This document shows, piece by piece, positions 6,357 through 51,992 of a stretch of DNA of 58,921 nucleotides (position 1 is the stretch's first letter; each line of letters begins with the position of its first letter). This stretch comes from a virus. The stretch lies in the IMG/VR virus record IMGVR_UViG_3300049793_000053, positions 1-58,921 of that record. One strand, 5' to 3'. Below the pieces are notes generated by a model. That model worked only from the letters and a program-made list of their open reading frames with translations. It had not been told where the DNA came from and made no database searches. Both the position numbers and the translations under genes were made by a program.

Positions 6357-6958
6357 CGTTCAACGTAACCGTCGGACCCAACACCGCCGAAGTCTACGGC
6401 GGGATCACCGCATGCATCGCGTACCTGTCGTGGAATAGCGACGCAGCTGCGCAAGCGTTCGCAAACCTGTCGACCGACGATCAGAGCAAGCGACTCGTCG
6501 ACGCGACGCGATGGATCGATCGCAAGGTATGGGCCGGCGCACCGACGACGCCGGCCGTCGGCGGTACCACGTTGCAGTGGCCGCGTACCGGCGTGACGGT
6601 GCGCGTGAACAACGCGATCGTCGTGGTCGATCCCAACACGGTGCCGGTTGACGTCGTCAACGGATGCTTCGAGCTCGCCGCGCTCGCCGCGGCGGATCCG
6701 TCCGTGCTCACGGCGGCATCGACGGCGAGCAACGTGCAGTCGTTGCAGGCCGGCTCGGCCGGGATCGGATTCTTTCAACCGACGTCGCTCGCGAACGGTA
6801 CCGCGACGTTGTTTCCGACGATCATCGAGCAGCTACTCGCGAAGTATCGCCCCGGCGGTACGTCGACAGGGAGCTCGCGAGCGGGCACGTTCGCCGGTGC
6901 CGACGGCTGCTCGCGCTTCGACGACTGCGCCGTGATTTCGCGAAAGATCCCGTTCTAG
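6353..6958 (+). CDS. Head-tail adaptor (DnaT-like connector) protein
   Basis: A 201-residue protein overlapping the portal stop by four bases. It has the layout of the DnaT-like/gp6-type head completion proteins: an N-terminal helix with regular Trp/Ala spacing, DATRWIDRKVWAG near residues 44-61, then the WPRTGV motif and a VDVVNGCFELAALA helix. Such proteins bind beneath the portal. Residues 165-201 are Ser/Thr/Gly-rich with two Cys and look variable. The stop TAG shares CTAG with a possible opposing ORF. Confidence 0.75.
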   Translation: MTFNVTVGPNTAEVYGGITACIAYLSWNSDAAAQAFANLSTDDQSKRLVDATRWIDRKVWAGAPTTPAVGGTTLQWPRTGVTVRVNNAIVVVDPNTVPVDVVNGCFELAALAAADPSVLTAASTASNVQSLQAGSAGIGFFQPTSLANGTATLFPTIIEQLLAKYRPGGTSTGSSRAGTFAGADGCSRFDDCAVISRKIPF

Positions 6959-35247: not shown

Positions 35248-35936
35248 GGGCTCGAAGCTATCACGGCCGTCGAGCTCCTCGAAACTTCGTCCCATGCCTT
35301 GCCGACGTCGCCGCTGCCGGGATAGGCGTCCTCGAGAACATCGCCCGGTAGCATCCCGAGCGCGCGAAACAGGAACGCCGAGAACGCGAGCGGCTTGCGC
35401 CCAACGAGGTCGCAGTCGTCGCCGCGCGCCGTCGCGGCGACGAGGTAGTCGGGCACGCCGCCACGCCCGGAGACGCGGCCGCCGACGACGATCACGGGCT
35501 CCCAGCTGTTGGACAGCCCGAACGCCGTCGCGGACATGTTCGACGGCTTCACCCACGGGCAGACGTGTGCGCACGGCGGGCAACACCCGAGCACGAACCG
35601 CAACGCCGCGGCGCTCGTCGAGATCGCGTATCCAGCGAGCTCTCCGGCGACGCGCCGGCGTTCGGCCTCGCCGATCATCGCAACGTGATCGACCTCGCCA
35701 CCGTAGCTGTCTTGATCCTTGTAGCGCCACGCATGGCCGGGGTACGGCGGATCGTGGTAGCGAAAACGCAACGGCGTGCCGACGGTGCGCGGACCGAGCG
35801 CGCCGGTGCGCTTGCGGATCCGGTAGGCCGTCTGTCGGTGCCGCTTGCCGCAGAACCTCGACGGGATCCCGCGGGCGTCGAGCGCGGTCGTCGGCGCGCC
35901 GCACCACTCGCACGGCCATGGATCCAGTGTGGTCAC
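35244..35936 (-). CDS. DNA methyltransferase (DPPY class) with N-terminal zinc finger
   Basis: A 230-residue putative amino-methyltransferase. Residues 9-31 (CEWC...FCGKRHRQ) form a small zinc finger likely to touch DNA. DPPY (62-65) is the catalytic motif of N6-adenine/N4-cytosine enzymes. DAYPGSGDVG (203-212) is the AdoMet-binding loop, placed after the catalytic motif as in the beta/permuted classes. GTG start overlaps the upstream stop. It may protect phage DNA from restriction; target base and site are unknown. Confidence 0.75.
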   Translation of the reverse strand: MTTLDPWPCEWCGAPTTALDARGIPSRFCGKRHRQTAYRIRKRTGALGPRTVGTPLRFRYHDPPYPGHAWRYKDQDSYGGEVDHVAMIGEAERRRVAGELAGYAISTSAAALRFVLGCCPPCAHVCPWVKPSNMSATAFGLSNSWEPVIVVGGRVSGRGGVPDYLVAATARGDDCDLVGRKPLAFSAFLFRALGMLPGDVLEDAYPGSGDVGKAWDEVSRSSTAVIASSP

Positions 35937-36478
35937 AGCTCGTCGGGCTCCGGCTTGTTGCCGAGCGGAACCTCGACGCGCGCCTTGCCGGCGGCGAGGT
36001 AGATCGACGCGAACCGCAACGCCACGCACGGCAGCGTCGAGATCTGCAACGGCTTGCGGCGCGCGATCGATCCACACGAAATGTGCGGCTGAAAACCGAA
36101 CGTCCGATCGTGCGAGACGCCAGAATGCGCGAGCTCGCGCGTCACGTCGGTTCGGAGGTCACCGATCGCCGCAGCGTTCAACAGCAACACGACAACGTCG
36201 AAGTCGGTCGATCCTTCGCGGCAGAACCGCGCCGCGCCGTCGGCCTTGCCAACGAACGGAGGAGTAGCCTTCGCGACGCGCTGTAACGCGTTGGCGATGC
36301 CGCGGATCTGCGCCGGCAATCGGCGGCCCGGTCCGATGAACGCGAGGGTGACGTGTGGATCCTTCGCATCCATCGCGCCGAGCAAGAGGCGCGGAGGATC
36401 GACGGGCGACGTTCCGATCCACAGCGCGTGACCGTTCGCCGTGTGCGCGGCGACGGAGTCGACATCGTATTGCCTCAT
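35933..36478 (-). CDS. 2H phosphoesterase (LigT-like)
   Basis: A 181-residue protein with two HxT/S motifs, PHVTLAFIG (His42, Thr44) and FQPHISCGS (His132, Ser134), separated by about 90 residues as in the 2H phosphoesterase fold. Members cut cyclic or 2',5'-phosphodiesters in RNA repair; phage members include anti-CBASS Acb1-like enzymes that destroy cyclic nucleotide alarms. Which applies here cannot be told from motifs. ATG and GTG overlaps tie it to the methyltransferase and the glycosylase-like gene. Confidence 0.75.
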   Translation of the reverse strand: MRQYDVDSVAAHTANGHALWIGTSPVDPPRLLLGAMDAKDPHVTLAFIGPGRRLPAQIRGIANALQRVAKATPPFVGKADGAARFCREGSTDFDVVVLLLNAAAIGDLRTDVTRELAHSGVSHDRTFGFQPHISCGSIARRKPLQISTLPCVALRFASIYLAAGKARVEVPLGNKPEPDEL

Positions 36479-37092
36479 AGAGCATTCCCCACACGAAAGC
36501 CGGCCGTCGCGCGTGCGGCGATGCCGGCGGCCATTTGATTTTTCTTGTCGTCGTAGATCTTGCTTCGGATCCCCGGGTGCGGGATCGAGCGGTAGCAGTG
36601 ACCGTCGATCTCGACGGCTTGCATCGGCAGCTCGATCCCGAACGCCGCGGACACGCGCATGCCGAGTAAGAGGAGTTTGAGCGGGCCGGCGTCGCTCGTC
36701 GACGCGCGACGCGCCTCGAGATCGTCGGCGAGCATCTTGCGGATCGCCGCGGCGCGCTCCTTCGCACCTTCGAGCGGCCATGGATCGATCGCGCGATCGT
36801 ACAGGTTGATCCGACGCAGCCGCCCGATCCACTGACCGACGGGCATGCCCGACCACGCCATCAACAGCGCGCCGGCCGACGAGTCGGCGCCCGGATGGAG
36901 CGGCATCACGGTCGGGTTCGCGCCGGGCATCGCGCCGATCACGATGCCGAAGATCGGACCCTCGACATCGGCCGGACGGAGGCCGCGCTTTCGCGCGAGG
37001 ATCGTGAGCTCCTCCGGGTGAACGTGCGCGCACTCCGGCCGCCGCCACGCCGTCGGCAATCGATCCGTGTAGCACGGCCACGGCGACGTCAT
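36475..37092 (-). CDS. Uracil-DNA-glycosylase-fold-like protein
   Basis: A 205-residue protein with a layout recalling the UDG superfamily: VIGAMPGANP (51-60) in place of the water-activating GxxPG loop, SSAGALLMAWSG as the following helix, LLLLGMRVSAAFG (140-152), and PHPGIRSKIYDD (171-182) like the C-terminal PHPS/N loop. It would act on altered bases, perhaps in repair or on modified DNA. The usual catalytic Asp/Asn is not certain. It overlaps its neighbours by ATGA at both ends. Confidence 0.5.
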   Translation of the reverse strand: MTSPWPCYTDRLPTAWRRPECAHVHPEELTILARKRGLRPADVEGPIFGIVIGAMPGANPTVMPLHPGADSSAGALLMAWSGMPVGQWIGRLRRINLYDRAIDPWPLEGAKERAAAIRKMLADDLEARRASTSDAGPLKLLLLGMRVSAAFGIELPMQAVEIDGHCYRSIPHPGIRSKIYDDKKNQMAAGIAARATAGFRVGNAL

Positions 37093-39060: not shown

Positions 39061-41550
39061 CTAGAACGCGCTCGCGGCTTCGGGCACGTCGTCGCGACAC
39101 TGGATCGTCGGCCACTCGTGCGAACCGAAGCGCGAGCTCGAGAACGCGGCGCGGCACTTGTCGAGCGCGGGCAACTCCCAAAACTGGCGGCGCACGATGC
39201 GGCGGCCGCGCTCGTCGCAGATCTCTTGACGTCGTTGGTACGACTGGATCCCGGGCACGACCCTGTTGAGGAAGTGGCCGAGCGTCGTCTCGGTCGATCG
39301 CCGCGCGCCGACGCGCGAGGTGTAGCGGAGGAAGTCGTCGACGATCGCCTCCTTGCAGATCGGCGCCTGCCACTCGAGGTGATCGGAGACGATGATCCCA
39401 TCCTCGAGTTTACGGAACCACCATTCATCCATTGGATCGAGCGACAACATCCGTTGCTCGCGCAGCGCGATCGTCTGCGGCACGGTGCGCACCGTGAACC
39501 GGGATAGATCGTAACCCTGCAAGTAGTACAACAGCGACGCATAGCCGGCGTTCCCGTTCGCCTCGAGATCGGCGCGCAGCGCGGCAAAGTACGGCTCGTC
39601 CTGTCGACGATCGGACAGCACGTCGAGCACGAGAAAGCGCCGCTCGTGGTGCCCGACCGGCACGACCCACGAGCTGTTCGACGCCATGATCAAGTGGACG
39701 CAGTTCCGCGACTGCGTCGCGTCGAGTCCCTTGTTTTCGATCATGAGGGTCGGCTCGGTGATCAACGCCTTGAGCGCGCCCTCGTGTTGCTTGTCGCCGG
39801 CGAAAAAAGCCTCGTCGGCGAACACGAGCACCGAGTCGCGCAGCGCTGCATTGAAGTGCCCGACGAGATGGTGAGCGCTCGACAGGTACAGGTAGTGGCG
39901 GCCGAACAGCTTGCCGAACACGTGCGCGAACGTTCCTTTGCCGGCGCCGCGCTCGCCGCGCAACACGACGGCGACCTCGCCGGTATCGGCCGGATGTTGG
40001 ATCGCGCGCGCCATCCAACCGATCAAGTAGCTGTAGATCTCCTCGTTGCCGCCGCAGAGATTCGCCTTGACGTGCGCGAGGAATTTCTCGTGTCCGGTTC
40101 CCGGACGCGCCTCGAACGCGAACCCCTGCCACATGTTGTACGCGCCGGTGATCTCGCGACCGGGCGCGAACACGATCCGCTCGAACTGCTTGCGCGACTC
40201 GTGGTGCAGCCAAAATTTTCCCAGCGGCATCGTGATCGGCTGGTTCTTTTTGTCGACGCCGATCTGTACCGATAGGTTGTCGAACCGCTTTCCGAAGTGC
40301 TCGAACGCCTGCAACGACAGCGTGTCGCGTTGCATGACTTCGTCGTAGACCTCTTCCATGACGAGGCACTTGCCGCCGTGGTTCTCGATCACCGCAAAGC
40401 GCTCGTTGAATTCACGGAGCCGCGGATGGATCGCGTCCTCTTTCGCGCGCTCGATCTGCCGGTTCGCGTAGCGCTCGACGTTCTTGTTGTCGAGCACGCT
40501 CGAGCTGATCTTGTAATCCTTGTCGGTGATCACCGAGTAGATCACGGCGTCCGGCACGCCGGCACGCACGAGATCGCAACAGACGTTGAACAGCCACTCC
40601 GATCGCCGCGCACCGCGATCTCCGACGAGCAGCACTTGTCGATCGTCGGGGTCGACACCCTGCACGATCTTGATCAACGTGCGCTTGTTGATCCGCGGTC
40701 CCCATGGCTCGGCCGCTTCGAGCTCGTCGATCGCCCAACGCCGCACGTTGCCCACCGACGTCGCGACGGCCGTCGCCGGCCGCGGCCGCGCGGTGCGTGT
40801 CGATGCGATGCCGCCGCCGGAGCTCTGCACCGGCTCGGCCGCGACGAACGCCGACAGCGGATGCGATCCGATCGCGTCGAACCACACGACGGACGAGCGC
40901 GCGATCGATCGCCCCTTCGCGCGTTTCTTCGTGTCGGGATAGTTCAGTGTGCCGGGTAGCCGGAGGATGCGATCGGCGTTGTGGCAGTGGTCGCCACCGA
41001 ACGCCCACTCGAGCGCGCGGTTGTACCGCTCGACGTCCTCGCACGACTTCTCTCGCGCCTTGACGTTGTCGCCGGTGATCTTCGACGGCACGTCGAGACG
41101 CCACAGCGCCTGGTAGCCGCCGCCGGAATCGATGAGGCCGGACGGCCGCGGTACCGGCGACGGCGTCGGGGAAAACTTACCGCGGATCCGCGTGCGCTCC
41201 TCGACGACGTAGGCGACGAGCTCCTCGCGCGTCGGCTCTGGCTTCGCGAGCTCGCGCGGATCAACGTCGACGTGCAGGTACGCGACGGCGTCGACTTCCG
41301 ACTTGTCGGCTTTCTCGGCGAGCGATCCAACATGCGGGTTGAGCATGTAGTAGACGTTGCGATCGCCGAAGCGATCGAGGAACGACGCGATGCCGGCGTC
41401 GTCGTCGCCGGCGAACTGCCGCGTGTCGATGCCGCGTTGATCGACGGCGATCGCCGTGAGCAACCACGGACCGTCGGGACGTAGCACACGCAAGAACGCG
41501 AGCGCGGCCACAGGGTCATGGAGTTGTTTGCGCGGTTGTTCGTTCGCCAT
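39061..41550 (-). CDS. Primase-helicase (PrimPol plus SF3 helicase)
   Basis: An 829-residue replication protein. Residues 1-240 form an archaeo-eukaryotic primase-like domain: HVDVDP with D95/D97, DSGGGYQALWRL (141-152) and RILRLPGTLNYP (194-205). Residues ~460-700 form an SF3/D5-type ATPase: GERGAGKGT (532-540), LVFADE (575-580), the Asn sensor in MASNSS and HHERRF with the likely Arg finger. It should unwind and prime phage DNA. The C-terminus ends EAASAF, shared with the ssDNA-binding-like protein. Confidence 0.85.
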   Translation of the reverse strand: MANEQPRKQLHDPVAALAFLRVLRPDGPWLLTAIAVDQRGIDTRQFAGDDDAGIASFLDRFGDRNVYYMLNPHVGSLAEKADKSEVDAVAYLHVDVDPRELAKPEPTREELVAYVVEERTRIRGKFSPTPSPVPRPSGLIDSGGGYQALWRLDVPSKITGDNVKAREKSCEDVERYNRALEWAFGGDHCHNADRILRLPGTLNYPDTKKRAKGRSIARSSVVWFDAIGSHPLSAFVAAEPVQSSGGGIASTRTARPRPATAVATSVGNVRRWAIDELEAAEPWGPRINKRTLIKIVQGVDPDDRQVLLVGDRGARRSEWLFNVCCDLVRAGVPDAVIYSVITDKDYKISSSVLDNKNVERYANRQIERAKEDAIHPRLREFNERFAVIENHGGKCLVMEEVYDEVMQRDTLSLQAFEHFGKRFDNLSVQIGVDKKNQPITMPLGKFWLHHESRKQFERIVFAPGREITGAYNMWQGFAFEARPGTGHEKFLAHVKANLCGGNEEIYSYLIGWMARAIQHPADTGEVAVVLRGERGAGKGTFAHVFGKLFGRHYLYLSSAHHLVGHFNAALRDSVLVFADEAFFAGDKQHEGALKALITEPTLMIENKGLDATQSRNCVHLIMASNSSWVVPVGHHERRFLVLDVLSDRRQDEPYFAALRADLEANGNAGYASLLYYLQGYDLSRFTVRTVPQTIALREQRMLSLDPMDEWWFRKLEDGIIVSDHLEWQAPICKEAIVDDFLRYTSRVGARRSTETTLGHFLNRVVPGIQSYQRRQEICDERGRRIVRRQFWELPALDKCRAAFSSSRFGSHEWPTIQCRDDVPEAASAF

Positions 41551-41575
41551 AGGGACAGCTAGACGATCGCCGAGC

Positions 41576-41980
41576 CTACGGCTTTACCAAGTCGATTAGC
41601 TCTTTGTCAACAAGCCGAGGCGACCAACACCATCGCGCGACGCGTTCGAGATCTGCGCGTGTTGCGTGACCGACGACCGCGGCCGCGGTGTGCCCGTCGA
41701 ACAGCAACCACTGTTGCTCGACGAGCAGCAACAGATCCGCGCGGCCGCCGGCGCGAACGCGTCGCGTCAACCACGTGCGCTGCTGTCCCGTGAAGTGCGG
41801 GATCCGCAACGGCGTCGCGGCGCGCTTCGGCCACGCGGCGACGTACTTGAGCTCCATCCAACCGCCGACGTGGTTGACGTCGGCCGTGCCAGGGTGCACG
41901 AAGTTTTCCACGCTGATCGCGTCGAGCGGCCGCAACGCCTCGACGACGCGCTGTCGCATCCGACTCTCGCGGCCGCTCAC
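41576..41980 (-). CDS. PD-(D/E)XK (VRR-NUC-like) nuclease
   Basis: A 134-residue protein with the core of small VRR-NUC/Holliday-resolvase-like nucleases: ENFVHPGTADVNHVGG (Asp34), WMELKYV (Glu43, Lys45) and a Gln/Trp helix (GQQRTWLTRR), followed by GRADLLLLVEQQWLLFDG. Such enzymes resolve branched phage DNA. The GTG start overlaps the previous stop; starts further upstream would overlap that gene. It lies next to the primase-helicase. Confidence 0.75.
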   Translation of the reverse strand: MSGRESRMRQRVVEALRPLDAISVENFVHPGTADVNHVGGWMELKYVAAWPKRAATPLRIPHFTGQQRTWLTRRVRAGGRADLLLLVEQQWLLFDGHTAAAVVGHATRADLERVARWCWSPRLVDKELIDLVKP

Positions 41981-42225
41981 GTGTAGCGCCGGCGCGGCCG
42001 TGCGATCGGCGGTTGGAGATCTGCGATCGCCGCCGGATAGCTGCACGTCGCGCACACGTCGAACGCGACCGCGAACCTGTTCGGTGGGCTCTGGATCGTG
42101 CCGCTACGCCAACCCGCTTTCGCGGCGAACGCGCGTGCGTGATGGATCAGCGCGTTGCACGTGTGGATCGTGTTCGAGCAACCGATCCGATCGCACCGAA
42201 GCATGTAGACCGCGCGGCCGCTCAC
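41977..42225 (-). CDS. Small zinc-binding protein (82 aa)
   Basis: An 82-residue protein with four or five Cys: CDRIGC (10-15), C23 region and CATC (53-56). It is probably a single zinc ribbon. GTG start in a GTGA overlap. Its first bases (GTGAGCGGCCGCG) are the same as those of the next gene in the chain. No family is recognised. Confidence 0.6.
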   Translation of the reverse strand: MSGRAVYMLRCDRIGCSNTIHTCNALIHHARAFAAKAGWRSGTIQSPPNRFAVAFDVCATCSYPAAIADLQPPIARPRRRYT

Positions 42226-43013
42226 TTCCCCTCGAGTACGTTCGCGACCTCGCGCCGGAGTCCGAGCAAGATCGCGATCGCGGCGCACGTCTCGAACCTG
42301 TGGCTGTCGCCGGCGACGGCCGACAGAATCTCGACACAAGCCATCGCGGCTCCGGCCGGCGACAGCGGCTCGGGCGATTCGATCTCCGCGAACGACGACG
42401 AGCTCGGCAACGCCTCGATGCGAGCACGCAACACGTCGCGCTCGCGTTGCGCGCCGTGGCGGATTCCGGCCTCGACGGCCTCGACAACGACACGATGCGC
42501 CATCGCGATCCGAATGGCTGCCGCGTGGTCGGACTCGGCGCGAACCGGACGATCGAAGCCGAGGCCCTCGAGTTTCTCCGCGAGTTTCCCGTCGGGAAGG
42601 ATCGCCGGTTCGATCGTGTGGCCGAGCGCGCGGATCTCCCCCTCCTTGATTCCATTGACGACCGCCGTGATCACCCACGGGTGCGGCTGAAACGGATCAG
42701 TGTAGTAGCTCGGCGGGCTCTCCTTCGCGGCCGCGACTGCGATCGTGTGCGCGCGTTGGATGTACGTGTCGAGCGCGAGCGATTCCATCTTCGCGTACTT
42801 GCCGGCCTGCCCCGGCGGCCACTCGCGCGGCCGGAGCTCGTTCGGTGTGCAGCCGATCCGCACGCCGTTGTCACGCGCGATCTGATAGCTGATCGCGTTG
42901 CCGTGCGTCGGGTCGCTGAATCGCTGCGCGACGTGTCCCTTGATCCACACGCCGTGATAGTTCACCTCGACGAGATCGCCGACGCTTAGGTTGTTCATTT
43001 TCGCCGTCGTCAT
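42222..43013 (-). CDS. Hypothetical protein (263 aa)
   Basis: A 263-residue unrecognised protein. The first 60 residues (VGDLVEVNYHGVWIKGHVAQ) look like a small SH3/Tudor-like beta barrel. The rest is helical with Ser/Pro-rich linkers, and includes an LEGLGFDRPVRAES region similar to accessory segments in other phage early proteins. The start overlaps the previous stop (ATGA). Role is unknown. Confidence 0.6.
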   Translation of the reverse strand: MTTAKMNNLSVGDLVEVNYHGVWIKGHVAQRFSDPTHGNAISYQIARDNGVRIGCTPNELRPREWPPGQAGKYAKMESLALDTYIQRAHTIAVAAAKESPPSYYTDPFQPHPWVITAVVNGIKEGEIRALGHTIEPAILPDGKLAEKLEGLGFDRPVRAESDHAAAIRIAMAHRVVVEAVEAGIRHGAQRERDVLRARIEALPSSSSFAEIESPEPLSPAGAAMACVEILSAVAGDSHRFETCAAIAILLGLRREVANVLEGK

Positions 43014-43237
43014 GTTGAAAGCTCCTCGCAGTTGCCGTGGTTAAACTCGAACATCATGATCTTGAGCGCACGCCAATAGCCGAGCACGCCGTTGCGCCGC
43101 TTCGATCGCCAACCGCCCGTCACCGGATGCGGGTCGTCGTGCATCTGCTTGCGCACCGACGCGAACGTCTCGCCCGTCTTGAATTCGGAGTAGAGCGCGC
43201 CGCACACGCACGGCCGCGGCGTTCTACGCGACGGCAT
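43010..43237 (-). CDS. Small hypothetical protein (75 aa)
   Basis: A 75-residue protein with CVCG near the N-terminus, a basic centre (WRSKRRNGVLGYWRALK) and a C-terminal HGNC. It may bind zinc and nucleic acid. It overlaps the nucleotidase gene by 14 bases and the next gene by four. Similar short Cys/Trp proteins recur in phages without a known role. Confidence 0.55.
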   Translation of the reverse strand: MPSRRTPRPCVCGALYSEFKTGETFASVRKQMHDDPHPVTGGWRSKRRNGVLGYWRALKIMMFEFNHGNCEELST

Positions 43238-43820
43238 CCCACGCGTCTCGCATGCGCAGGTACTCGATCAACTCGTGGAAATCTTCGACGACAACACCGC
43301 TCCATCTGTCGTGCTCGTTGTGCGGCGTCCGCCACAGCACCGGCGTACCTTCGGGATGCTGCGCGTGCCACGCTTCGAGCGTCTCGACGTGATCGTCGAC
43401 GAGCATGTCGCCGCCGACGACATACTTCGCGTCGGTGTGAACGACGCGCGAGCGTGGGATCGCGAGCTTGCTCGCAAGCCACGCGGTGCGCTCGTGGCAC
43501 CACGTCGGGCCATCCTCCCACGGCTTCGTGACGATGAACACCTCGCGCAATCCGCGCAGCGTCTCGACGCCCGACTCGGCGCCGGGCAACACCGGCAGCG
43601 CGGCGCACCATCCGGGCTCGGCGATCGCGTTCCAGAGATCGCCGCGCTCGAGCTCGGTGAGCTTGAGCGCGGCCGCGAAGTTGTATTGATCGACGTCGGC
43701 GACATAGACCGTACGCAGATCTCCTTTCGCACGGCGATGTCTGTTGACAGTGGCAACGACGCCGGCAATGAAGCCGGACAACACGCCGTCGGAATCGAGG
43801 AGCAATCGTTTGGGGATCAT
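43224..43820 (-). CDS. 5'(3')-deoxyribonucleotidase (HAD family)
   Basis: A 198-residue HAD-type phosphatase: LLLDSDGVL (Asp8 nucleophile, Asp10), VFIVTKPW as motif II, and a VVGGDMLVDDH motif IV with the metal-binding Asp pair. Family members remove phosphate from dNMPs, adjusting the pool for replication. It lies directly downstream of the DNA polymerase, with a separate MazG-like gene further up, so nucleotide-pool control is a credible shared task. Confidence 0.75.
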   Translation of the reverse strand: MIPKRLLLDSDGVLSGFIAGVVATVNRHRRAKGDLRTVYVADVDQYNFAAALKLTELERGDLWNAIAEPGWCAALPVLPGAESGVETLRGLREVFIVTKPWEDGPTWCHERTAWLASKLAIPRSRVVHTDAKYVVGGDMLVDDHVETLEAWHAQHPEGTPVLWRTPHNEHDRWSGVVVEDFHELIEYLRMRDAWDAVA

Positions 43821-43823
43821 GAC

Positions 43824-45794
43824 CTAGGCCGCGAGCTCGAGCTCGGTGAGGTGTGCGTAGTCGGCGCCGGTTTCGACGTCGACGCGTGACGGAACGTTCA
43901 GCGGCAGAGCTTCGAGCATGATCTTTGCGATGCTCGCGCAAGTGCCACGTAGATTTCCACGGGAAAGAGAAAAATCGAATTCGTCGTGCACGGTGAGCCG
44001 CGGCTTGAAGCCTGCACGCCCGAGCAGCACGAGTGCAGTCTTCGTCTGGATCGCGGCCGATCCCTGGATCAAACGGTTGAGCGCCTTGTAGGTCCAATCG
44101 AAATTTCCGAAGTCGTCGGTTGGGAACCTGCAACGACGCTTGTCGATCAGCAGCAGATAGCCGCGCGCCTTCGCCTTCTCTTGGCAGAGGTACGACAGCG
44201 CACGCACGAACGGCACGCGCTCGTCAAACTGATCGAGTACGGCCTGCGCCTCGGGGCCCGCGTACAGCTTGAGCTCGCCGCGTCGGTCGCGCCGCTCGAC
44301 GGTGGGAAGCCCGAGCTTCGTCGCGAGCAAGCCGCCACCCATGCCGTAGCAGAGGCCGAGAAAGACCTCCTTGGCATCCTTGCGAGGGAGGCCGGACATT
44401 TTCGCGAACATGTCGTGGCTGTCGGTGCGCGGATCGTTGCGATAGAGATCGGCGAACGCTTTCGCGCCGTACAGGTTCGAGAGCTCGGCGTAGTGCACCG
44501 TCGTGCGCGGCTCTTGTTGCGAGTAGTCGAAGCAAGCCCAATCTTCGCCCTCCTCGGGGATGTAGATCGCGCGCCACATTTTGCCGAATTCAGGATGCCG
44601 CGCCGGCGACGCTTGCACGTTCGGGTGACGCGACGCCGTGCGGCCGAACCGCGCGCCCTCGTCCTCGGCGTCGTCGTCGTTCTCGCTCGCCGCGTGCATC
44701 TGCTTGTACGCGGGGTGCAGGCGATCGCCGATGAGATGCTCCTCCACACCGGCGACGTACGTCGTCAACACCTTGTGCGCCGCGCGCGCGTGCAAGATCG
44801 CCTGCACGACCTCGTCGCGCTTGTGCGCGAGCAACAGCTCCTTGGTAACCGACGGCTGAGTTTTCTTCGTGATCTTGTGCGGGTTCGTCCTCGGCACCGC
44901 GATGCCGCGGTGCGCGAGCGCGGGCTCGAGCTCGCGAGCGGTCATCACACGGTGCACGCCGGTCCGCTTGTCGACGGAGATCCGAACGCCGGTGAGGTGC
45001 TCGATGCGCCCGGCCTCGTCGGCGATCACGCGCTCGCAGTGGACGCGCACGCCGGCGAGTCGCTCGCGCGAGACGCGGACCCCGCGCCTCGTCATGCGGA
45101 GGAGCTCGAGCATCGCTTCGGACTCCATCGCGAACGGGCCGAGCAGCGACTGCGCGGCGAGCTCGCGCTCCTGTCGGCGCAAGAGCTCGAGCGGGCCGAC
45201 GACGTCACGCTCGGCGTACGCCCCGACGGCACCGGCGTGCAACCGCCACAGGTCGCGTTTCGCGTTGAGGCCCCACGCTTCGGCGTGCCGCCGGAGCTCG
45301 TCCTCGTCCTTGCCGGGCAACCCTCGACGTTTCAGGATCGCATCGAGGTTGTACTCGTGTTGGAGCTCGTCGAGCAGCGGCTCCGCGATCTGCACGTCGC
45401 GATGGCTCGTCGCGCCGGCGAACACGACGTCGGCATCCCAGAGGTACTCGAGATCGTAGGGCAGGCCGTTGCCGGCGATCTCGCCGCGGAAGTCGCGCGC
45501 CTGATCGCGCATGTACGCGAGCACGTTGCCGCGATCGAGGTTGCCGCCGTCCTCGTGTCCGAACGGCAGGTAGCGTGATGGGCCGTCCTCGATCGCGAAC
45601 GAGATGCCGACCATCTTGCCGCCGCGCCGCACGCCGCAGCCGAGCGCGGTCAGATCGTCGTCGCGCGTCTCGACGTCGACAGCGACGCGCTTCGCTTGGG
45701 ACCACGACGGCAGCGACGCGATCGCCGGCGCTGTCCACGTCGTCGCCGGCCGAAACATCGGCTGCTGTGACCATCCGGCATCTCGTGGCGACAT
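43824..45794 (-). CDS. DNA polymerase, family A with 3'-5' exonuclease
   Basis: A 656-residue replicative polymerase. Exonuclease motifs: VAVDVET (D40, E42), GNGLPYDLEY (D114) and YAERD (D197). Polymerase motifs: A, CFDYSQQEPR (D423); B, R471..K475..L479..Y483 followed by GMGGG; C, VHDE (603-606). The residue matching E. coli Phe762 is Leu479, a form linked in viral surveys to temperate or slower-growing phages. The 5' nuclease domain is absent. An ATG two codons into MFRP is a possible alternative start. Confidence 0.9.
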   Translation of the reverse strand: MSPRDAGWSQQPMFRPATTWTAPAIASLPSWSQAKRVAVDVETRDDDLTALGCGVRRGGKMVGISFAIEDGPSRYLPFGHEDGGNLDRGNVLAYMRDQARDFRGEIAGNGLPYDLEYLWDADVVFAGATSHRDVQIAEPLLDELQHEYNLDAILKRRGLPGKDEDELRRHAEAWGLNAKRDLWRLHAGAVGAYAERDVVGPLELLRRQERELAAQSLLGPFAMESEAMLELLRMTRRGVRVSRERLAGVRVHCERVIADEAGRIEHLTGVRISVDKRTGVHRVMTARELEPALAHRGIAVPRTNPHKITKKTQPSVTKELLLAHKRDEVVQAILHARAAHKVLTTYVAGVEEHLIGDRLHPAYKQMHAASENDDDAEDEGARFGRTASRHPNVQASPARHPEFGKMWRAIYIPEEGEDWACFDYSQQEPRTTVHYAELSNLYGAKAFADLYRNDPRTDSHDMFAKMSGLPRKDAKEVFLGLCYGMGGGLLATKLGLPTVERRDRRGELKLYAGPEAQAVLDQFDERVPFVRALSYLCQEKAKARGYLLLIDKRRCRFPTDDFGNFDWTYKALNRLIQGSAAIQTKTALVLLGRAGFKPRLTVHDEFDFSLSRGNLRGTCASIAKIMLEALPLNVPSRVDVETGADYAHLTELELAA

Positions 45795-45820
45795 GGCAGA
45801 TCAGAGCGAAAGCGAATCGA

Positions 45821-46378
45821 TCACGACATCACTTCCCAGTCCGTCGCGATGTAGTCGTCGGGCGCGAGGTTGATCGGTAGCCCGACCAGGAGGTTGACGA
45901 ACGACGGCGCGTCGGGCGCGGCGCGGTGCGCGATCGGGTAGATGAACAGGTGCCGCTCGAGCATGTCGTGGGCGACCGCGCGATCTCCGGCGGCCGGGCC
46001 GCGCGTGATCCACTTGCGCCGGCGGATCGGGCGACCGCTTTCGATCGCCTCGACGAAGCCGACGAGGTTCGCCGACATGATGTTCGTCGCGTTGAGCTGC
46101 GCGGCGTAGTCGGAAGGCAGCTCATCGTTCGCCGGCGGCGGCACCTCGCGCACGATCGGCTCGGGCTTCGCGAGCACGCGAACGTCACCGATCGGAACGC
46201 TGTAGACCTGCCCGCTGTTGCTGATCGGCGCGACGTAGTAGCCCGTCACGACGGGCGGCGACGTCTCGCCGAACGTGACGCCCTCGACGGAGCACACGCA
46301 CCACGCGTCGATGATCACCGACGGAAGTCGCGCCTCGACTCGATCGCCCTCGTAGAACCGGCTCGGGTCCCGCTCCAT
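45821..46378 (-). CDS. Hypothetical protein (185 aa)
   Basis: A 185-residue protein just upstream of the polymerase. Residues 1-75 are beta-rich with a barrel-like pattern (YEGDRVEARLPSVIIDAW; VVTGYYVAPISN). Residues 85-185 are helical with a basic IRRRKWITRG segment. No family is recognised. Its ATG overlaps the MazG-like stop by one base (TGATG). It may be a replication accessory. Confidence 0.6.
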   Translation of the reverse strand: MERDPSRFYEGDRVEARLPSVIIDAWCVCSVEGVTFGETSPPVVTGYYVAPISNSGQVYSVPIGDVRVLAKPEPIVREVPPPANDELPSDYAAQLNATNIMSANLVGFVEAIESGRPIRRRKWITRGPAAGDRAVAHDMLERHLFIYPIAHRAAPDAPSFVNLLVGLPINLAPDDYIATDWEVMS

Positions 46379-46842
46379 CAGGGCACCATCGGCGTCGCAC
46401 GCGCGATCGTCTCGGCGGCGTCGATCAACTTCTGTTCGGCCGGCGACGGCTTGCGGGTGTAGTGCATGCCGTCGGGCTCGAGCACGATCGGTGCACCGAC
46501 GCGCACGGACACTTGGTTAAACTTCGACATGATCGCCGCGCCGAGATTGACCCCGAGGCGATACGACAGGATGTCGAGGTAGCACGCGACGTCGGCGCAC
46601 TCCTTCGCGATCTCCTCGCGGCACGCATCGAGCGTGGTGTCGCCGCGCTCGACTTTCTTGATCAGGTTCGCGAGCTCGCCGAGCTCGCCGAGCACGGCGT
46701 TACTCCACGTCGACGGCTTCCAATCTGAGCCATCGACTTCGCTGTGCGCGGGGCCACCCTTCGCGTTTTTGAACAGCGGGATCCGCGCGATGTTGCCAGC
46801 GCGCAGCGTGTTGAAAGTCAGTCCGTCGGTTCCGTATCCCAT
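46378..46842 (-). CDS. MazG-like NTP pyrophosphohydrolase
   Basis: A 154-residue all-alpha protein with the MazG core: WSNAVLGELGELANLIKK (Glu53, Glu56) and EECADVACYLD-type second motif (EIAKECADVACYLD, residues 78-90). These enzymes hydrolyse (d)NTPs to monophosphates; phage versions trim nucleotide pools. GAGGAGG lies five to six bases before the ATG at 46842, a strong start; an upstream ATG at 46947 would overlap the helicase gene. It feeds the polymerase/nucleotidase group. Confidence 0.8.
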   Translation of the reverse strand: MGYGTDGLTFNTLRAGNIARIPLFKNAKGGPAHSEVDGSDWKPSTWSNAVLGELGELANLIKKVERGDTTLDACREEIAKECADVACYLDILSYRLGVNLGAAIMSKFNQVSVRVGAPIVLEPDGMHYTRKPSPAEQKLIDAAETIARATPMVP

Positions 46843-46858
46843 GTGATCCTCCTCGGTG

Positions 46859-48112
46859 CTAGAGAACAAGCGTGAGCTCGCGGCGAGCTCGAGTGACTGC
46901 GGTGTACAGATGCCGGTGTGCATCGTGGCCGAACGACTTCGACTCATCGAACACGACGACGTTTCCGAATTCTGATCCTTGCGACTTGTGCACCGTGATC
47001 GCGTAGCCGTAGGCGAATTCGTGCGCCTCGTTTTTCGTGTAGCCCTTGAGATCTTTCTCGCGGCCCTCGAAGTGGTGCAGCCATGCCGTCACGCCGATCG
47101 CACCGCCCTCGCGCTCCTCGTCGCCGTCGTCGTCCGAATCCCGGACAACGAGGTGCACGAGTCCGTTCGCGTGGTCCGGCGTCGCGGCAACGCAACGGTG
47201 CATGCCGCCGTTGAGCAAGCCGAGCTCGTGATCGTTGCGCAAGCAGATCAGCCGATCGCCCGGCACCGGGCCGGGCGCCATGCCGCGCAGCCGGCGGATC
47301 TTGTTGTTCGTGCCGTGGCGCGTGGCGTTGCGACCGACGAGCAGTTGATCGGCGGCGAGCGCGCGCTCCTCGATCCTGTAGTCGCCGTATCGCATGACGT
47401 CGACGCCCTCACCGAACGATCCGAGCTCGGGCCGCTTGCCGTGTCGGATCATCGTCGCAAGCCGGAGGATCGGCGAGTCGGCGGCCTGCCGATGGATCTC
47501 GGTGAGCATGAAGTCGGGATCGCGTTGCGTGAAAAATCCGAGGCCGGCAACGGGGGGCAGCTGTGCGGGATCACCGAGCACGAGCAGCGGGATCCCGAAC
47601 GACAGGAGATCGAGGCCGGTGCGCGCGTCGATCATCGAGCACTCGTCGGCGATGATCAACGCCGCGCCGTGCGCAGGGCCGAACGGATTCAGCCTGAACC
47701 GCGGGCCCTTGCGGTTCGCATCCTCTTTCGCGCGCGTGAGCCGATCGCCGGCGACAGCGAGCACAGCTTCGTCGAGCGGCACCGCAACGCGCGCGGCTTC
47801 GAGCTGCGCGGCGAGGATCGCGATCATTTGCGGCGTCGGTGGATCACCGCCGGACGCATAGATCAGCTTGTGGATCGTCGTCGCACCGGCGCACCCTTTC
47901 GACCTCAAGACGTGCGCAGCCTTGCCGGTAAACGCGCAGTACTCGACGCGGCCGTCGACGCCGGCGGCGAACAACTTCGCGATCGTCGTCTTGCCGCTGC
48001 CGGCGTTGCCGCCGAGGTAGAAGACTTGCCCCGGTGTGTTGGCCTTGGGTCCGGATCGGAACCAACGTGCGACGCGATCGAGCGCCGCGGCTTGCGCGTT
48101 TGATGGCTTCAT
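46859..48112 (-). CDS. SF1B (RecD2/Dda-like) DNA helicase
   Basis: A 417-residue helicase with Walker A GGNAGSGKTT (34-43), AFTGKAAHVL, Walker B LIIADECSMID, motif III LLVLGDPAQLPPV and, in the C-terminal half, YAITVHKSQGSEF and YTAVTRARREL. This is the RecD-like/Dda class that unwinds 5'-3' at phage forks or in recombination. It ends 16 bases upstream of the MazG-like ATG. No Shine-Dalgarno is evident; the tRNA-like element lies just upstream. Confidence 0.85.
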   Translation of the reverse strand: MKPSNAQAAALDRVARWFRSGPKANTPGQVFYLGGNAGSGKTTIAKLFAAGVDGRVEYCAFTGKAAHVLRSKGCAGATTIHKLIYASGGDPPTPQMIAILAAQLEAARVAVPLDEAVLAVAGDRLTRAKEDANRKGPRFRLNPFGPAHGAALIIADECSMIDARTGLDLLSFGIPLLVLGDPAQLPPVAGLGFFTQRDPDFMLTEIHRQAADSPILRLATMIRHGKRPELGSFGEGVDVMRYGDYRIEERALAADQLLVGRNATRHGTNNKIRRLRGMAPGPVPGDRLICLRNDHELGLLNGGMHRCVAATPDHANGLVHLVVRDSDDDGDEEREGGAIGVTAWLHHFEGREKDLKGYTKNEAHEFAYGYAITVHKSQGSEFGNVVVFDESKSFGHDAHRHLYTAVTRARRELTLVL

Positions 48113-48138
48113 ATGGACAGGTTCCCGACGAAGAAAGG

Positions 48139-48223
48139 CCCTACTGGATGGAGTCGAACCATCACGGTCTAGCTCGCGACCTGTCCGACGCGAGCATCAA
48201 CCGTATCACCACTGATCCGTAGG
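48139..48223 (-). ncRNA. tRNA-like element (possible degenerate tRNA)
   Basis: Read leftward, CCTACGG (5') pairs with CAGTAGG (3') at six of seven positions. Near the 3' end GATGG-TTCGACT-CCATC is a perfect T-arm with the GGTTCGANTCC consensus. ATCA/TGAT can form a D stem, and GCTCGCG/CGCGAGC forms a seven-bp anticodon-like stem, but with a ten-base loop lacking a standard anticodon layout. CCA is not encoded. It may be a decayed tRNA, a tRNA mimic or an att-like tRNA remnant. Confidence 0.4.
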
Positions 48224-48260
48224 AAAAGACGCGCGCCGAAGAGGGTAGCCGGCGCGCGTC
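48224..48260 (-). terminator. Rho-independent terminator after the ssDNA-binding-like gene
   Basis: Read leftward, GACGCGCGCCG and CGGCGCGCGTC form a perfect 11-bp stem with an 11-base loop, followed at once by TTTT. The T-run touches the 5' end of the tRNA-like element. It lies 49 bases after the stop of the 48310 gene. Confidence 0.8.
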
Positions 48261-48309
48261 CCGAGGTCGTCGTATCGCGAGCGGTCGACTGCTCGCTACG
48301 CGTCGGCCT

Positions 48310-49335
48310 CTAAAACGCCGATGCGGCTTCGCTCGTCGGTGCGCCGGTCGACTGCGGATCGTCGGCCTGCGTCGTCTCGTAGGCGCCGGCCTTCGCACCC
48401 TTCATGTACTGCTCGTGCAGCACCTTGGCGGCGATGTAGCGCTCGTCGTCGAGGCCGAGCAGCGATCGATCCATGCCGCTGCGGCCGTTCTTTTCGCTGA
48501 ACACCGGCGACAGATCCGGCACGTACCACGAGAGTTTCCCCTCCTGCCGGAACACCGTCGTGAGCCGCACGCGGTGCGCGAACATCGGCACCGGGGCCTT
48601 CGTGATCTTGCCGGTCGCGGCGTCCTTGACCTTGCTCTGATAGAGCGACACGTTCGTGTTCCACTCGCGGTACGCCTTGATCTTCGTCGAGGTGAACGAG
48701 ATCAGCACGGGGCCCTCGGCGTTCTTGCCGCCGAACACCGGCACGAGCTTGTCACCCTCGCGTTTCCACGCCTGGAACACGATGCCGGGCACCTCGTACG
48801 TCTCGACGAGCTCGGTGTCGGGCACGAGCTTGTTGTCGCGATCGAGCAGCGGCTTGCCGGCGGGGTCGAGATGCTTGAGCGGGATCTTACCGATGAACTT
48901 GCCGCCGTTCGCGTTGATCGCGTCGCGCACGATCTTGGCGTTCTTGGGATGACGGCCGCGGAAACCGCCGCCCTGTCCCTTTTCGTCGAGCGGCTTCCAC
49001 TCGGTGAACACGTGATCGGTGCCGGACGGAACGAAGTCGACCGCGTCGTAGATCTCGCCGGTGACGCTGTTGATGATCTGTCCGGCCTTCGCTTCACCCT
49101 TCGTCACGATCGGCGTGCCGGGTTGCAGGATGACGAGCATGGGGATCTTGCGATCGTCCATGTCCTGATTCTCGTGCCCCTTGCCGGCGTCGGTGCCGTA
49201 GTCCTCGGCGTCGAAAGTCGCCTCGTCGTCCTCGCGCTCGGCGAGCGCCTGCGTCTGCTGCGGCGCAGTCATCGCCTTGTTGTCCTCGGGTGCTGCTTCG
49301 GCCTTCGTGTTCTTGTTCTTGCTCGGAGTCGCCAT
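48310..49335 (-). CDS. ssDNA-binding-like replication protein (341 aa)
   Basis: A 341-residue protein with an acidic, disordered N-terminus (1-60), a beta-rich core (about 60-300, with KIPMLVILQPGTPIV and TYEVPGIVFQAWKREG) and a flexible C-terminal tail ending EAASAF. I associate this kind of protein with phage early regions, near polymerase and helicase genes, where single-stranded DNA-binding proteins lie. No OB-fold motif is certain by eye. It is followed by a strong terminator, fitting high independent expression. Confidence 0.5.
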   Translation of the reverse strand: MATPSKNKNTKAEAAPEDNKAMTAPQQTQALAEREDDEATFDAEDYGTDAGKGHENQDMDDRKIPMLVILQPGTPIVTKGEAKAGQIINSVTGEIYDAVDFVPSGTDHVFTEWKPLDEKGQGGGFRGRHPKNAKIVRDAINANGGKFIGKIPLKHLDPAGKPLLDRDNKLVPDTELVETYEVPGIVFQAWKREGDKLVPVFGGKNAEGPVLISFTSTKIKAYREWNTNVSLYQSKVKDAATGKITKAPVPMFAHRVRLTTVFRQEGKLSWYVPDLSPVFSEKNGRSGMDRSLLGLDDERYIAAKVLHEQYMKGAKAGAYETTQADDPQSTGAPTSEAASAF

Positions 49336-49424: not shown

Positions 49425-50042
49425 CTAGCCGCGGCCCGTCATGTCGCGGGTGATCTTCGCGATCTTCTGATCGAACACGTTGATCTTGTCGCGCGGCACT
49501 TCGGCGCCATCCTCGAGGAGCTCGCGGACGAGCTTCGATAGCGTCGTGTGGTGCACGTCCTTGACGGCTTCGACCTCGAAGCCGCGCGCTTCGAGTTCGA
49601 CGCGCAGCTCGTCGGCGCGGGCATCCTCGCCGCGCGATAGATCGACCCCCACGTGGTTCTTGATCACACCGCCGTGACCATTGGCAGCAAGCCACTCGAT
49701 CGCCGCGGCGCGCTTCGTGGGGTCGTCCTTGAGTGCCGGCAGTGATGCGCGGATCTTGCGGTCGATCGTGATCTTCGTCTTGTCGGCGAGCTTGCACTCG
49801 GAGAGCCGCATCGTGACCATGTGATCCGGGATCTCGCGCTCAACGAGATTCTTTAGCTTCAACTTCGCGGCTTCGAGATTCGCTTCGGCAAGGATCACTG
49901 CGTCGGACGCGACGAGCTCCTGTCCAACGAGATCTTCGAGCTGTGCGAAAGCGAGCTTTGCGTCGGCGGCCGCGACGTGCGATCCGGTGCCGTAGTTCGG
50001 AGCTTCCTCGGATGCCTCATCCGTCTCGATCTGATCGGTCAT
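49425..50042 (-). CDS. Hypothetical replication-associated protein (205 aa)
   Basis: A 205-residue protein with an acidic N-terminus, a long helix (KLAFAQLEDLVGQELVASDA, extending through LEAAKLKLKNLV), then an IPDHMVTMRLSECKLADKTKITI segment and a WLAANGHGG...VKNH-type alpha/beta region. This architecture is frequent next to phage ssDNA-binding and helicase genes, with unknown activity. ATG 50042 was preferred over starts inside the next gene. A TTGCGT/TAACAG promoter precedes it. Confidence 0.6.
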   Translation of the reverse strand: MTDQIETDEASEEAPNYGTGSHVAAADAKLAFAQLEDLVGQELVASDAVILAEANLEAAKLKLKNLVEREIPDHMVTMRLSECKLADKTKITIDRKIRASLPALKDDPTKRAAAIEWLAANGHGGVIKNHVGVDLSRGEDARADELRVELEARGFEVEAVKDVHHTTLSKLVRELLEDGAEVPRDKINVFDQKIAKITRDMTGRG

Positions 50043-50050
50043 GATGATCC

Positions 50051-50080
50051 CTGTTACCATCGTCAACAGATCGAACGCAA
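50051..50080 (-). promoter_or_regulatory. Candidate promoter for the 49425 gene
   Basis: Read leftward: TTGCGT (50080-50075), an 18-base spacer containing an operator half-site CTGTTGAC, TAACAG (50056-50051), then eight bases to the ATG. Confidence 0.35.
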
Positions 50081-50097
50081 GCGCGATCGTAGATTTC

Positions 50098-51759
50098 TTA
50101 CGACAGCCACTCGCGGAGATCGTCGCCGACAACCTCCGCGGCGATCTTGTTTTTCTCGATCAGCGACTTTTGGATCTTTTCGTCGACGGTGCGCAGCGCG
50201 ACGAGGTCGTAGTACGTCACCGGGTTGTGTTGCCCGACGCGATGGCACCGGGCCTCGCTCTGGATCCGCTCGTCGTACTTGAAGCTATTCGAGTAGTAGA
50301 TCGCTGCTTTCGCCTCGACGAGCGTAACGCCTACGCCGATCGCGGCCGGGTTCGCGACGAAGAATTGCGCCTTATCCCCGCCGCGGAACGCGTCGATCGC
50401 GGCCGCGCGCGCCTTGCTCGACGTGACCGCGCCGTCGTAGCGGACGCAGCGATCGCCGAGCATCTTGCACAACCGATCGACGTCGTGCCGGAACCGCGCC
50501 CAAATGATCGCCTTGTACGGGATCGACGCGCAGAGATCGATCGCATGCAGCATGCGCGGATCGTCGAGCTCGTTGCCGGGCAACCGCATCGGCTCGGCGT
50601 CGGGGTCGTCGGGGTTAGGCAGGTAGCCGCACGCGATCTGTTGCAGCCGGAGGATCTTGACGATCGCGAGCGTCGCTGTCACGAGCTTGCCCTCGAGCTC
50701 GAGCATGCATTCGCGCTTGAGCTTGTCGTACGCGGCGCGCTGGATCGGCGCGAGCTCGAACGGGATCCGGGTGTAGAGCTTCGGCGGTAGATGGATCCCG
50801 GCTTGCTCCTTCGTGAGCCGCGACGTGATCGGCGCGATCATGCGGTGTAGCTTGTCGAGGTCGCGGTAGTACGCGATCACCTCGACGGTGCGGCCGCGGC
50901 TCGCCGGCACCGGCGACGCGGCTGCAGCAGCGACGGGGGCCTCCTCACCGTCGTCACCGGCGACCAGGTCGCCCGACTCCATCGCGAGCTCGAACGCCGC
51001 CGCATCGCCGACCACGGGTTCGGCGACGAGCTTGCGGCTCGACGCCGGCTCGCGCGCGGCTACACCGTCCGTCGGTGCCGCGATCACGATCTTGCGCTTG
51101 ACCGCGAACGTTGCCTCGAACGCGGTGTAGCTGGCGATCCCGTGGCGTCGCCAAAAGTGCTCATCGATCATCACGATCTGAGAGTAGAGATCGAGCGGCG
51201 AGTTGCCGACCGGCGTGCCGTTGAGGATCCGCACGCACGCCGCGGCGATCGCGACAGCCTTGCAGATCTTGGTTCGCGCGGTCGTCGCGCCGGCGACGCG
51301 GGACGACTCGTCGATCACGAGCATGTAGCGGGGGAACGCGCGACGAAACGCACGCGCGACCTCGAGTCCGGCCGGCGTCTTGAGGCCGTCGTAGGTCATC
51401 GCCAGCCACAGCAGACGGCCGCGACCGCCGAGCACTTGTGCGACGTCGGCGATCTGCTGCCGAACCTTCGCGCGCTGTGCATCCCAGTCGACGCCGATCC
51501 ACGGTGCGCGGCAGTGGCGCGGCAGCTCGTCGGTGATCCAATTGCGGTGCACGCCGTCAGGCGCGAGCACGATCACGCCGTCGATATGCTTGTTCTCGTA
51601 GAGCCGCACCGCCGTCTCGATCGTCGGGCGCGACTTCGCAACGCCGGGCTCCCATAGGATCCCGAAGCCGCGCACGTGCCACGTGTCGGCAACGAGCGCG
51701 GCCTGATGATCGAAGTCGTCGGCGAATTCGCGCTCGCCCAAGCCGCCGCCGAGGGTCAC
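50098..51759 (-). CDS. SNF2-family DNA helicase/translocase
   Basis: A 553-residue protein with a two-lobe SF2 fold. Lobe 1: GILWEPGVAKSRPTIETA (33-50) in the Walker A position, LVIDESSRV as the DEAH-box equivalent and LNGTPVGNS as motif III. Lobe 2: IIWARFRHDVDRL and the SNF2-type QSEARCHRVGQHNPVTYYDLV. The A loop reads GVAKS rather than GxGKT. GTG start overlaps the wHTH gene. An Ala/Pro-rich acidic linker (about 260-290) separates the lobes. It probably remodels DNA or removes bound proteins. Confidence 0.85.
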   Translation of the reverse strand: MTLGGGLGEREFADDFDHQAALVADTWHVRGFGILWEPGVAKSRPTIETAVRLYENKHIDGVIVLAPDGVHRNWITDELPRHCRAPWIGVDWDAQRAKVRQQIADVAQVLGGRGRLLWLAMTYDGLKTPAGLEVARAFRRAFPRYMLVIDESSRVAGATTARTKICKAVAIAAACVRILNGTPVGNSPLDLYSQIVMIDEHFWRRHGIASYTAFEATFAVKRKIVIAAPTDGVAAREPASSRKLVAEPVVGDAAAFELAMESGDLVAGDDGEEAPVAAAAASPVPASRGRTVEVIAYYRDLDKLHRMIAPITSRLTKEQAGIHLPPKLYTRIPFELAPIQRAAYDKLKRECMLELEGKLVTATLAIVKILRLQQIACGYLPNPDDPDAEPMRLPGNELDDPRMLHAIDLCASIPYKAIIWARFRHDVDRLCKMLGDRCVRYDGAVTSSKARAAAIDAFRGGDKAQFFVANPAAIGVGVTLVEAKAAIYYSNSFKYDERIQSEARCHRVGQHNPVTYYDLVALRTVDEKIQKSLIEKNKIAAEVVGDDLREWLS

Positions 51760-51992
51760 GGTTTCGTCTCCACAAGACGCTTGCGACCAGCGTCGGTAAT
51801 ACGCCACGTGCCGCGCTCGCGACCGACGCCGGGGCCGCCGACGTACGCGATCGCGCCGGCCTGGTTCAGCGGCATCAACACCGATCGCGCGTTGCTGATC
51901 CCGATCGCCTTGCCGATCTGTTTCGCTGTCAACGCGGACGCCGCGATCAGCTCGAGCGCGGCGCGCTGTGCTTTCGACAGCGCGAGCGTCAC
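51756..51992 (-). CDS. Winged-helix DNA-binding protein (78 aa)
   Basis: A 78-residue protein that is little more than a winged helix-turn-helix: helices KAQRAALELIAA and LTAKQIGKAIG, recognition helix SNARSVLMPLNQAG, then the wing (GTWRITDAGRKRL). It resembles MarR/ArsR-like minimal regulators and is a second candidate for early-operator control. GTG in a GTGA overlap with the Dam-like stop. Confidence 0.7.
   Translation of the reverse strand: MTLALSKAQRAALELIAASALTAKQIGKAIGISNARSVLMPLNQAGAIAYVGGPGVGRERGTWRITDAGRKRLVETKP

Follow-up and report, generated by a model that had tools for sequence, protein, structure and literature searches.

Matching C-terminal tails on the primase-helicase and SSB-like protein of a phage suggest a shared docking motif

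Why should two replication proteins of one phage end in the same six residues? The window (the whole 58,921-nucleotide stretch of virus record IMGVR_UViG_3300049793_000053 that was analysed) encodes, on its minus strand, a primase-helicase and a protein that resembles a single-stranded DNA-binding protein (SSB), and both end in EAASAF followed by a stop codon:

39061..41550, minus strand: primase-helicase, 829 amino acids (PHROG 1829, with a DUF5906 SF3-type helicase region; activity predicted)
39064..39081, minus strand: terminal EAASAF codons of the primase-helicase, read directly (stop codon at 39061-39063)
48310..49335, minus strand: SSB-like protein, 341 amino acids (PHROG 2402, Pam3_Gp34 PF23977; putative DNA binding)
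48313..48387, minus strand: predicted disordered C-terminal tail of the SSB-like protein, residues 317-341 (pLDDT under 50)
48313..48330, minus strand: terminal EAASAF codons of the SSB-like protein, read directly (stop codon at 48310-48312)

The primase-helicase ends in ...CRDDVP-EAASAF, encoded by GAA GCC GCG AGC GCG TTC TAG, and the SSB-like protein ends in ...GAPTS-EAASAF, encoded by GAA GCC GCA TCG GCG TTT TAG. Both genes use GAA GCC for the first two residues of this ending, and the differences begin at the third residue. A first-pass annotation had quoted these codons correctly and had taken them as an argument against copying; they do exclude recent copying of DNA, and they show nothing beyond that.

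The identity of the two ends exceeds what chance would give, though the window had been selected for it. Among its 50 likely genes, this is the only pair with more than three terminal residues in common, and the probability that any of the 1225 pairs would share six is about 3e-4 under a null built from real 6-mers in the window's proteins. A better null uses tails from the same two families, drawn from different genomes. This gives a six-residue match in about 1e-4 of cross-genome pairs, so that 194 genomes should yield about 0.02 such matches; the window is the sole case among them. Only 3 of the 50 window proteins end in F or Y: the two EAASAF proteins and a head-tail adaptor (RKIPF). The adaptor (PHROG 477, window 6353-6958, plus strand) has a tip, SRKIPF, that is basic rather than acidic, and its ending is probably a coincidence.

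By its profile matches, the 829-residue protein is a primase-helicase. PHROG 1829 spans its residues 55-775, DUF5906 (PF19263) matches residues 530-638 at 82.1 bits (above the curated cut-off of 27.6), and there is a significant profile match to the NrS-1 primase-polymerase (PDB 6k9c, 6k9e) over the SF3 helicase region. In NrS-1, too, synthesis is enhanced by an SSB from the same phage (PMC7102993); the part of the NrS-1 literature covered here does not mention a shared SSB-type tail. Relatives of the window's protein are the primases of YuA-like siphoviruses (about 43-44% identity); many of these genomes label the gene as an integrase, a misannotation that has already been reported (PMC11946847).

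The 341-residue protein is likely, but not proven, to be the phage's SSB. It matches PF23977 (Pam3_Gp34) at 127.3 bits, above the curated cut-off of 27, and both this family and PHROG 2402 are listed as of unknown function. Its AlphaFold2 model is confident for roughly residues 50-310, and both termini, including the tail, are disordered. The top VIA-align match to this model is RB69 gp32, at a modest Z of 6.2 (175 residues); the gp32-Dda complex comes next, followed by many SSB and PriB OB folds. Foldseek returned nothing significant. A search of the PDB with the family's sequences gave only a weak match to ribosomal S10, which we judged to be due to chance. We consider an SSB role likely because of the model matches, the position between helicase genes and the tail, and the earlier description of the protein as ssDNA-binding-like is plausible on family membership and on these modest model matches. 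A comparable case is Enc34 ORF6 which, like further SSBs of T7-type phages (DUF2815), was a conserved hypothetical replication-module protein with an acidic C-terminus before it proved to be an SSB (PMC5686142). Like ORF6, the window's protein is a conserved hypothetical protein of a replication module with an SSB-type C-terminus, but it matches PF23977 rather than DUF2815 at the thresholds used.

Is the tail conserved? As a single-protein search of viral contigs found no relatives of the SSB-like protein, they were collected by alignment-based searches. In L166, the closest relative found (58% identity for the primase, 49% for the SSB), the tails are ASDAF and GDAAF, so EAASAF itself is one variant of a motif rather than a conserved peptide: on the sequences collected, the exact ending is private to this phage, and what is conserved is the class of tail. 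Over 14 aligned rows of the SSB-like protein (27-36% identity) the terminal Phe is invariant and the preceding linker is not. Across the collected loci, the last residue is aromatic (F, Y or W) in 169 of 188 distinct SSB tails (~90%), in 72 of 88 distinct primase-helicase tails (~80%) and in 103 of 123 tails of stand-alone AEP primases. For control genes of the same loci the total is 4 of 392 (PolA 0/97, SF1 helicase 0/43, gp33-like 0/91, SNF2 0/75, PHROG 2165 protein 4/86). The commonest ending is -PF, with Pro at -2 in most relatives. From these comparisons, the tail is a disordered tip of SSB type whose last residue is a hydrophobic anchor, normally Phe, and the resemblance to SSB tails that the first-pass annotation had noticed holds across families (DDDIPF, SDIPF, DEVPF, EPF and similar). 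We conclude that the shared ending is real and that its motif has been conserved.

Shared tails at the replication fork are already known as a kind. In T7, the primase-helicase gp4 ends in DTDF and the SSB gp2.5 ends in DGDF, and the gp4 tail binds the phage polymerase (PMC12593628, PMC5997990). As in T7, the primase-helicase and the SSB of one phage both carry an acidic, disordered-type tip with a terminal Phe. Unlike in T7, the primase-helicase is of the AEP-type/SF3 kind with DUF5906, the SSB belongs to the Pam3_Gp34 family, the tails are mostly -PF (and are weakly acidic in the window), the receptor is only a candidate, and in some lineages the anchors switch jointly to aliphatic residues. 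Likewise, the tails resemble the bacterial SSB-Ct (DDDIPF) in their disordered linker, in the terminal Phe, in often having a Pro before it and in the acidic residues upstream. They differ in that the primase also carries one and in that neither protein has an aromatic anchor in some lineages. The window's own tails end in -SAF: both have the terminal Phe, with Ala rather than Pro at -2 and a single Glu rather than an acidic triplet. On average, tails of this class are net acidic. A literature search, made mostly without subscription journals, found no description of shared tails in these phages, and the term SSB is absent from the paper on phage Lydia and the Mesyanzhinovviridae.

The unusual part is that the anchors change together. 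In 194 genomes from both lineages (primase-helicase and stand-alone AEP, additional loci included), both last residues are aromatic in 164, neither is in 19, only the primase has lost its aromatic end in 11, and only the SSB in 0. The 52 distinct pairs of lineage 2 comprise 43 with both aromatic, 8 with both aliphatic and 1 that is discordant. Joint switches of the two tails include KDIL/KGIL (L057), ESMI/DIPV (L114), GDVL/PEVM (L360), PY/PY (L001), and NLL or SLL with DAI, ETI or TII (L071, L086 and relatives). In L318, both tails are ESNY, identical to each other and unlike the usual -PF. Several of these switches look independent of one another (e.g., KDIL/KGIL and NLL/DAI). The coupling was assessed by a permutation test that ignores kinship, and the assessment was then repeated on clusters and on trees. 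When the trees are built from the SSB core with the tail removed, the two ends switch jointly in 5-6 of 6-7 supported independent pairs and in none do they switch in opposite directions; with so few events, p is about 0.03 (FastTree) or 0.06 (IQ-TREE). Two SSB-like proteins (L393 and L402) end in ETVPFEV, a PF tip plus two residues, and the primases of these genomes end in TKSS and TKNN; both tails seem to have been lost together.

At least four terminal residues are identical in 8 pairs from the same genome, against 2.0 expected from cross pairs, and this window has the longest match. Inner tail positions co-vary only weakly in a register test, with some shifted controls equally high, which is suggestive at most, and position -2 is not coupled between the tails. 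Because of this, the coupling, as far as the tail sequences tell, is one of anchor class and not of the whole peptide.

The same kind of tail recurs on other priming and helicase proteins. Marine-type contigs have the SSB-like gene and a related polymerase and lack the SF3 primase; a stand-alone AEP primase (AEP-TOTE, PHROG 21866) follows the SSB gene and has a tail of this kind. Five Pbunavirus-type phages have the SSB-like gene without that primase or that polymerase. Their VapE-like SF3 helicases end in DEF, EDF, EAF, GAF or DAF, and their SSBs have matching ends of the [DE]xF type (EEF, EGF, EQF or DNF). Luteibacter phage Pluto adds a sixth VapE-like/SSB pair (GGF and DNF). AAT-1, Mallos, AXL_1, Tedan and JWT have neither the SSB-like nor the gp33-like gene, and their primases, which share the C-terminal part, stop without such a tail; the phages are partly related, so this represents few independent losses. 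In Vibrio phage phiVC8, neither the primase (DTEE) nor the Pam3_Gp34-type protein (FPDEM) ends in F. A second annotated SSB of phiVC8, p31 (L239:2270-2785), contains MDFDDDIPF at an internal position, with 16 residues after it.

We propose that the two EAASAF ends are copies of one docking motif and that a single phage-encoded pocket might serve both tails; judging from the tail sequences, we see the case for this as evenly balanced. The motif would consist of a disordered tip, usually acidic, whose last residue is the hydrophobic anchor, as in the tails of bacterial SSB and of T7 gp4 and gp2.5. Both tails would compete for, or alternate in, a single pocket, and the phage-encoded protein that bears this pocket would co-evolve with both of them. 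Docking could then hold the priming enzyme at the SSB-coated template, with hand-over between primase and SSB. The first-pass annotation had suggested a common docking partner, and the correlated anchor switches point that way; its interpretation names the right kind of explanation, with details that are still hypothetical, and is partly supported.

Which protein could carry the pocket? The genes between and beside the two tail-bearing genes offer the candidates:

43824..45794, minus strand: family A DNA polymerase, an alternative candidate receptor (PF00476, 123 bits)
46859..48112, minus strand: Dda/RecD-like SF1 helicase (PHROG 325, AAA_30, UvrD_C_2)
49425..50132, minus strand: gp33-like protein (DUF7307, PHROG 2378), candidate tail receptor (PF23984, 79.6 bits against a cut-off of 27)
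50098..51807, minus strand: SNF2-type helicase (PHROG 62, E 5.8e-90)

YuA-like and Rhizobium phages retain the same gene order (SNF2 helicase, gp33-like, SSB-like, Dda/RecD-like helicase), and the gp33-like gene adjoins the SSB-like gene in most relatives. Any choice of receptor is a ranked guess, and the gp33-like protein or the SSB core most likely fits the distribution of the tails best. The pocket would thus lie in the SSB-gp33 module, a weaker inference that we draw because the SSB and gp33-like pair tracks the tails across all three lineages, and PolA and SNF2 do not: the SNF2 helicase is also present in genomes without tails, and the A-type polymerase is missing, by profile search, from the Pbunavirus-type genomes that carry them. 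The model of the gp33-like protein gave no fold match, including by Foldseek. We also compared equally distant genomes in a scan for columns linked to tail type in PolA, the SNF2 helicase, the SF1 helicase, the gp33-like protein and the SSB core; no residue tracked the tail type in most lineages. Two residues of the gp33-like protein (D110 and R137, in the numbering of the scan) were early hints and failed in lineage 1. Several observations count against a single pocket. The inner tail positions co-vary weakly, position -2 is uncoupled, and the tree tests have few events behind them. There are also the 11 genomes in which the SSB anchor is kept and the primase anchor is lost. In addition, a VapE-like protein of Corynebacterium phage Lederberg (L421:106-2523) ends in FDTPF, and no Pam3_Gp34/SSB-like or gp33-like gene was found in its record. 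This tail may go with another SSB.

A different receptor would be the phage's family A polymerase, which would tether the primase-helicase and the SSB as in T7, where the gp4 tail and gp2.5 both act on the polymerase gp5. A related polymerase does occur in records with PF-type tails and in records with aliphatic ones (including L057 and L114). This nevertheless seems unlikely, as the Pbunavirus-type genomes have the tails without such a polymerase and the scan of the polymerase showed no tail-linked residues.

Another possibility is that each tail has its own receptor, and that the likeness comes from general rules for SSB tips together with a genome-wide bias in amino acids. This would agree with inner positions that co-vary little above shifted controls and with the genomes that retain only the SSB anchor. 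We think it quite unlikely, since the anchor class switches jointly, the SSB anchor is lost alone in none of the 194 genomes, and long shared ends are in excess of expectation.

Third, the tails could mimic the host SSB tail to recruit readers of DDDIPF such as DnaG, the chi subunit, PriA or exonuclease I. The host receptors and their motif are known (PMC5872125), and many tails come very near to it (DDDIPF, SDIPF). However, the window's tails have Ala at -2 and few acidic residues, and in entire groups both proteins have I, L, V or M as their last residue. Host SSB-Ct receptors grip the terminal Phe (PMC5872125) and would be expected to read aliphatic or EAASAF tails poorly. We regard host mimicry as improbable, and it is because groups with aliphatic ends exist that we favour a phage-encoded pocket.

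Finally, it is very improbable that the hydrophobic last residue is a stability or degradation signal, or that the match is chance: the exact peptide is indeed not kept in the nearest relative, but the tail class is kept in many genomes and in specific protein families only, and a general turnover signal does not explain coupled anchor classes.

To return to the shared phage-encoded pocket, it can be extended to a broader reading, which we offer tentatively and think somewhat more apt to fail than to hold. Phages with a Pam3_Gp34-type SSB may use a private tail code, in which at least three kinds of priming or helicase protein (the AEP-SF3 fusion, the stand-alone AEP and the VapE-like protein) would have gained the tail type of their SSB, and in which a phage-encoded receptor, possibly the gp33-like protein, would have led to joint rewriting of the anchor (from F to I, L, M, V or Y). 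If this is true, two widespread phage families that are listed as unknown would have likely functions (PHROG 2402/Pam3_Gp34 as SSB, and PHROG 2378/gp33-like as a possible tail reader). T7-style wiring of the replisome through shared tails would recur in unrelated replisomes, and the naturally occurring pairs whose anchors have switched (F, Y, I and L) could be used to study how a motif and its pocket co-evolve.

Elsewhere in the window, the C-terminal half of the protein encoded at 35933-37081 (minus strand) resembles both head maturation protease and RNA ligase PHROG families, with similar weak scores.
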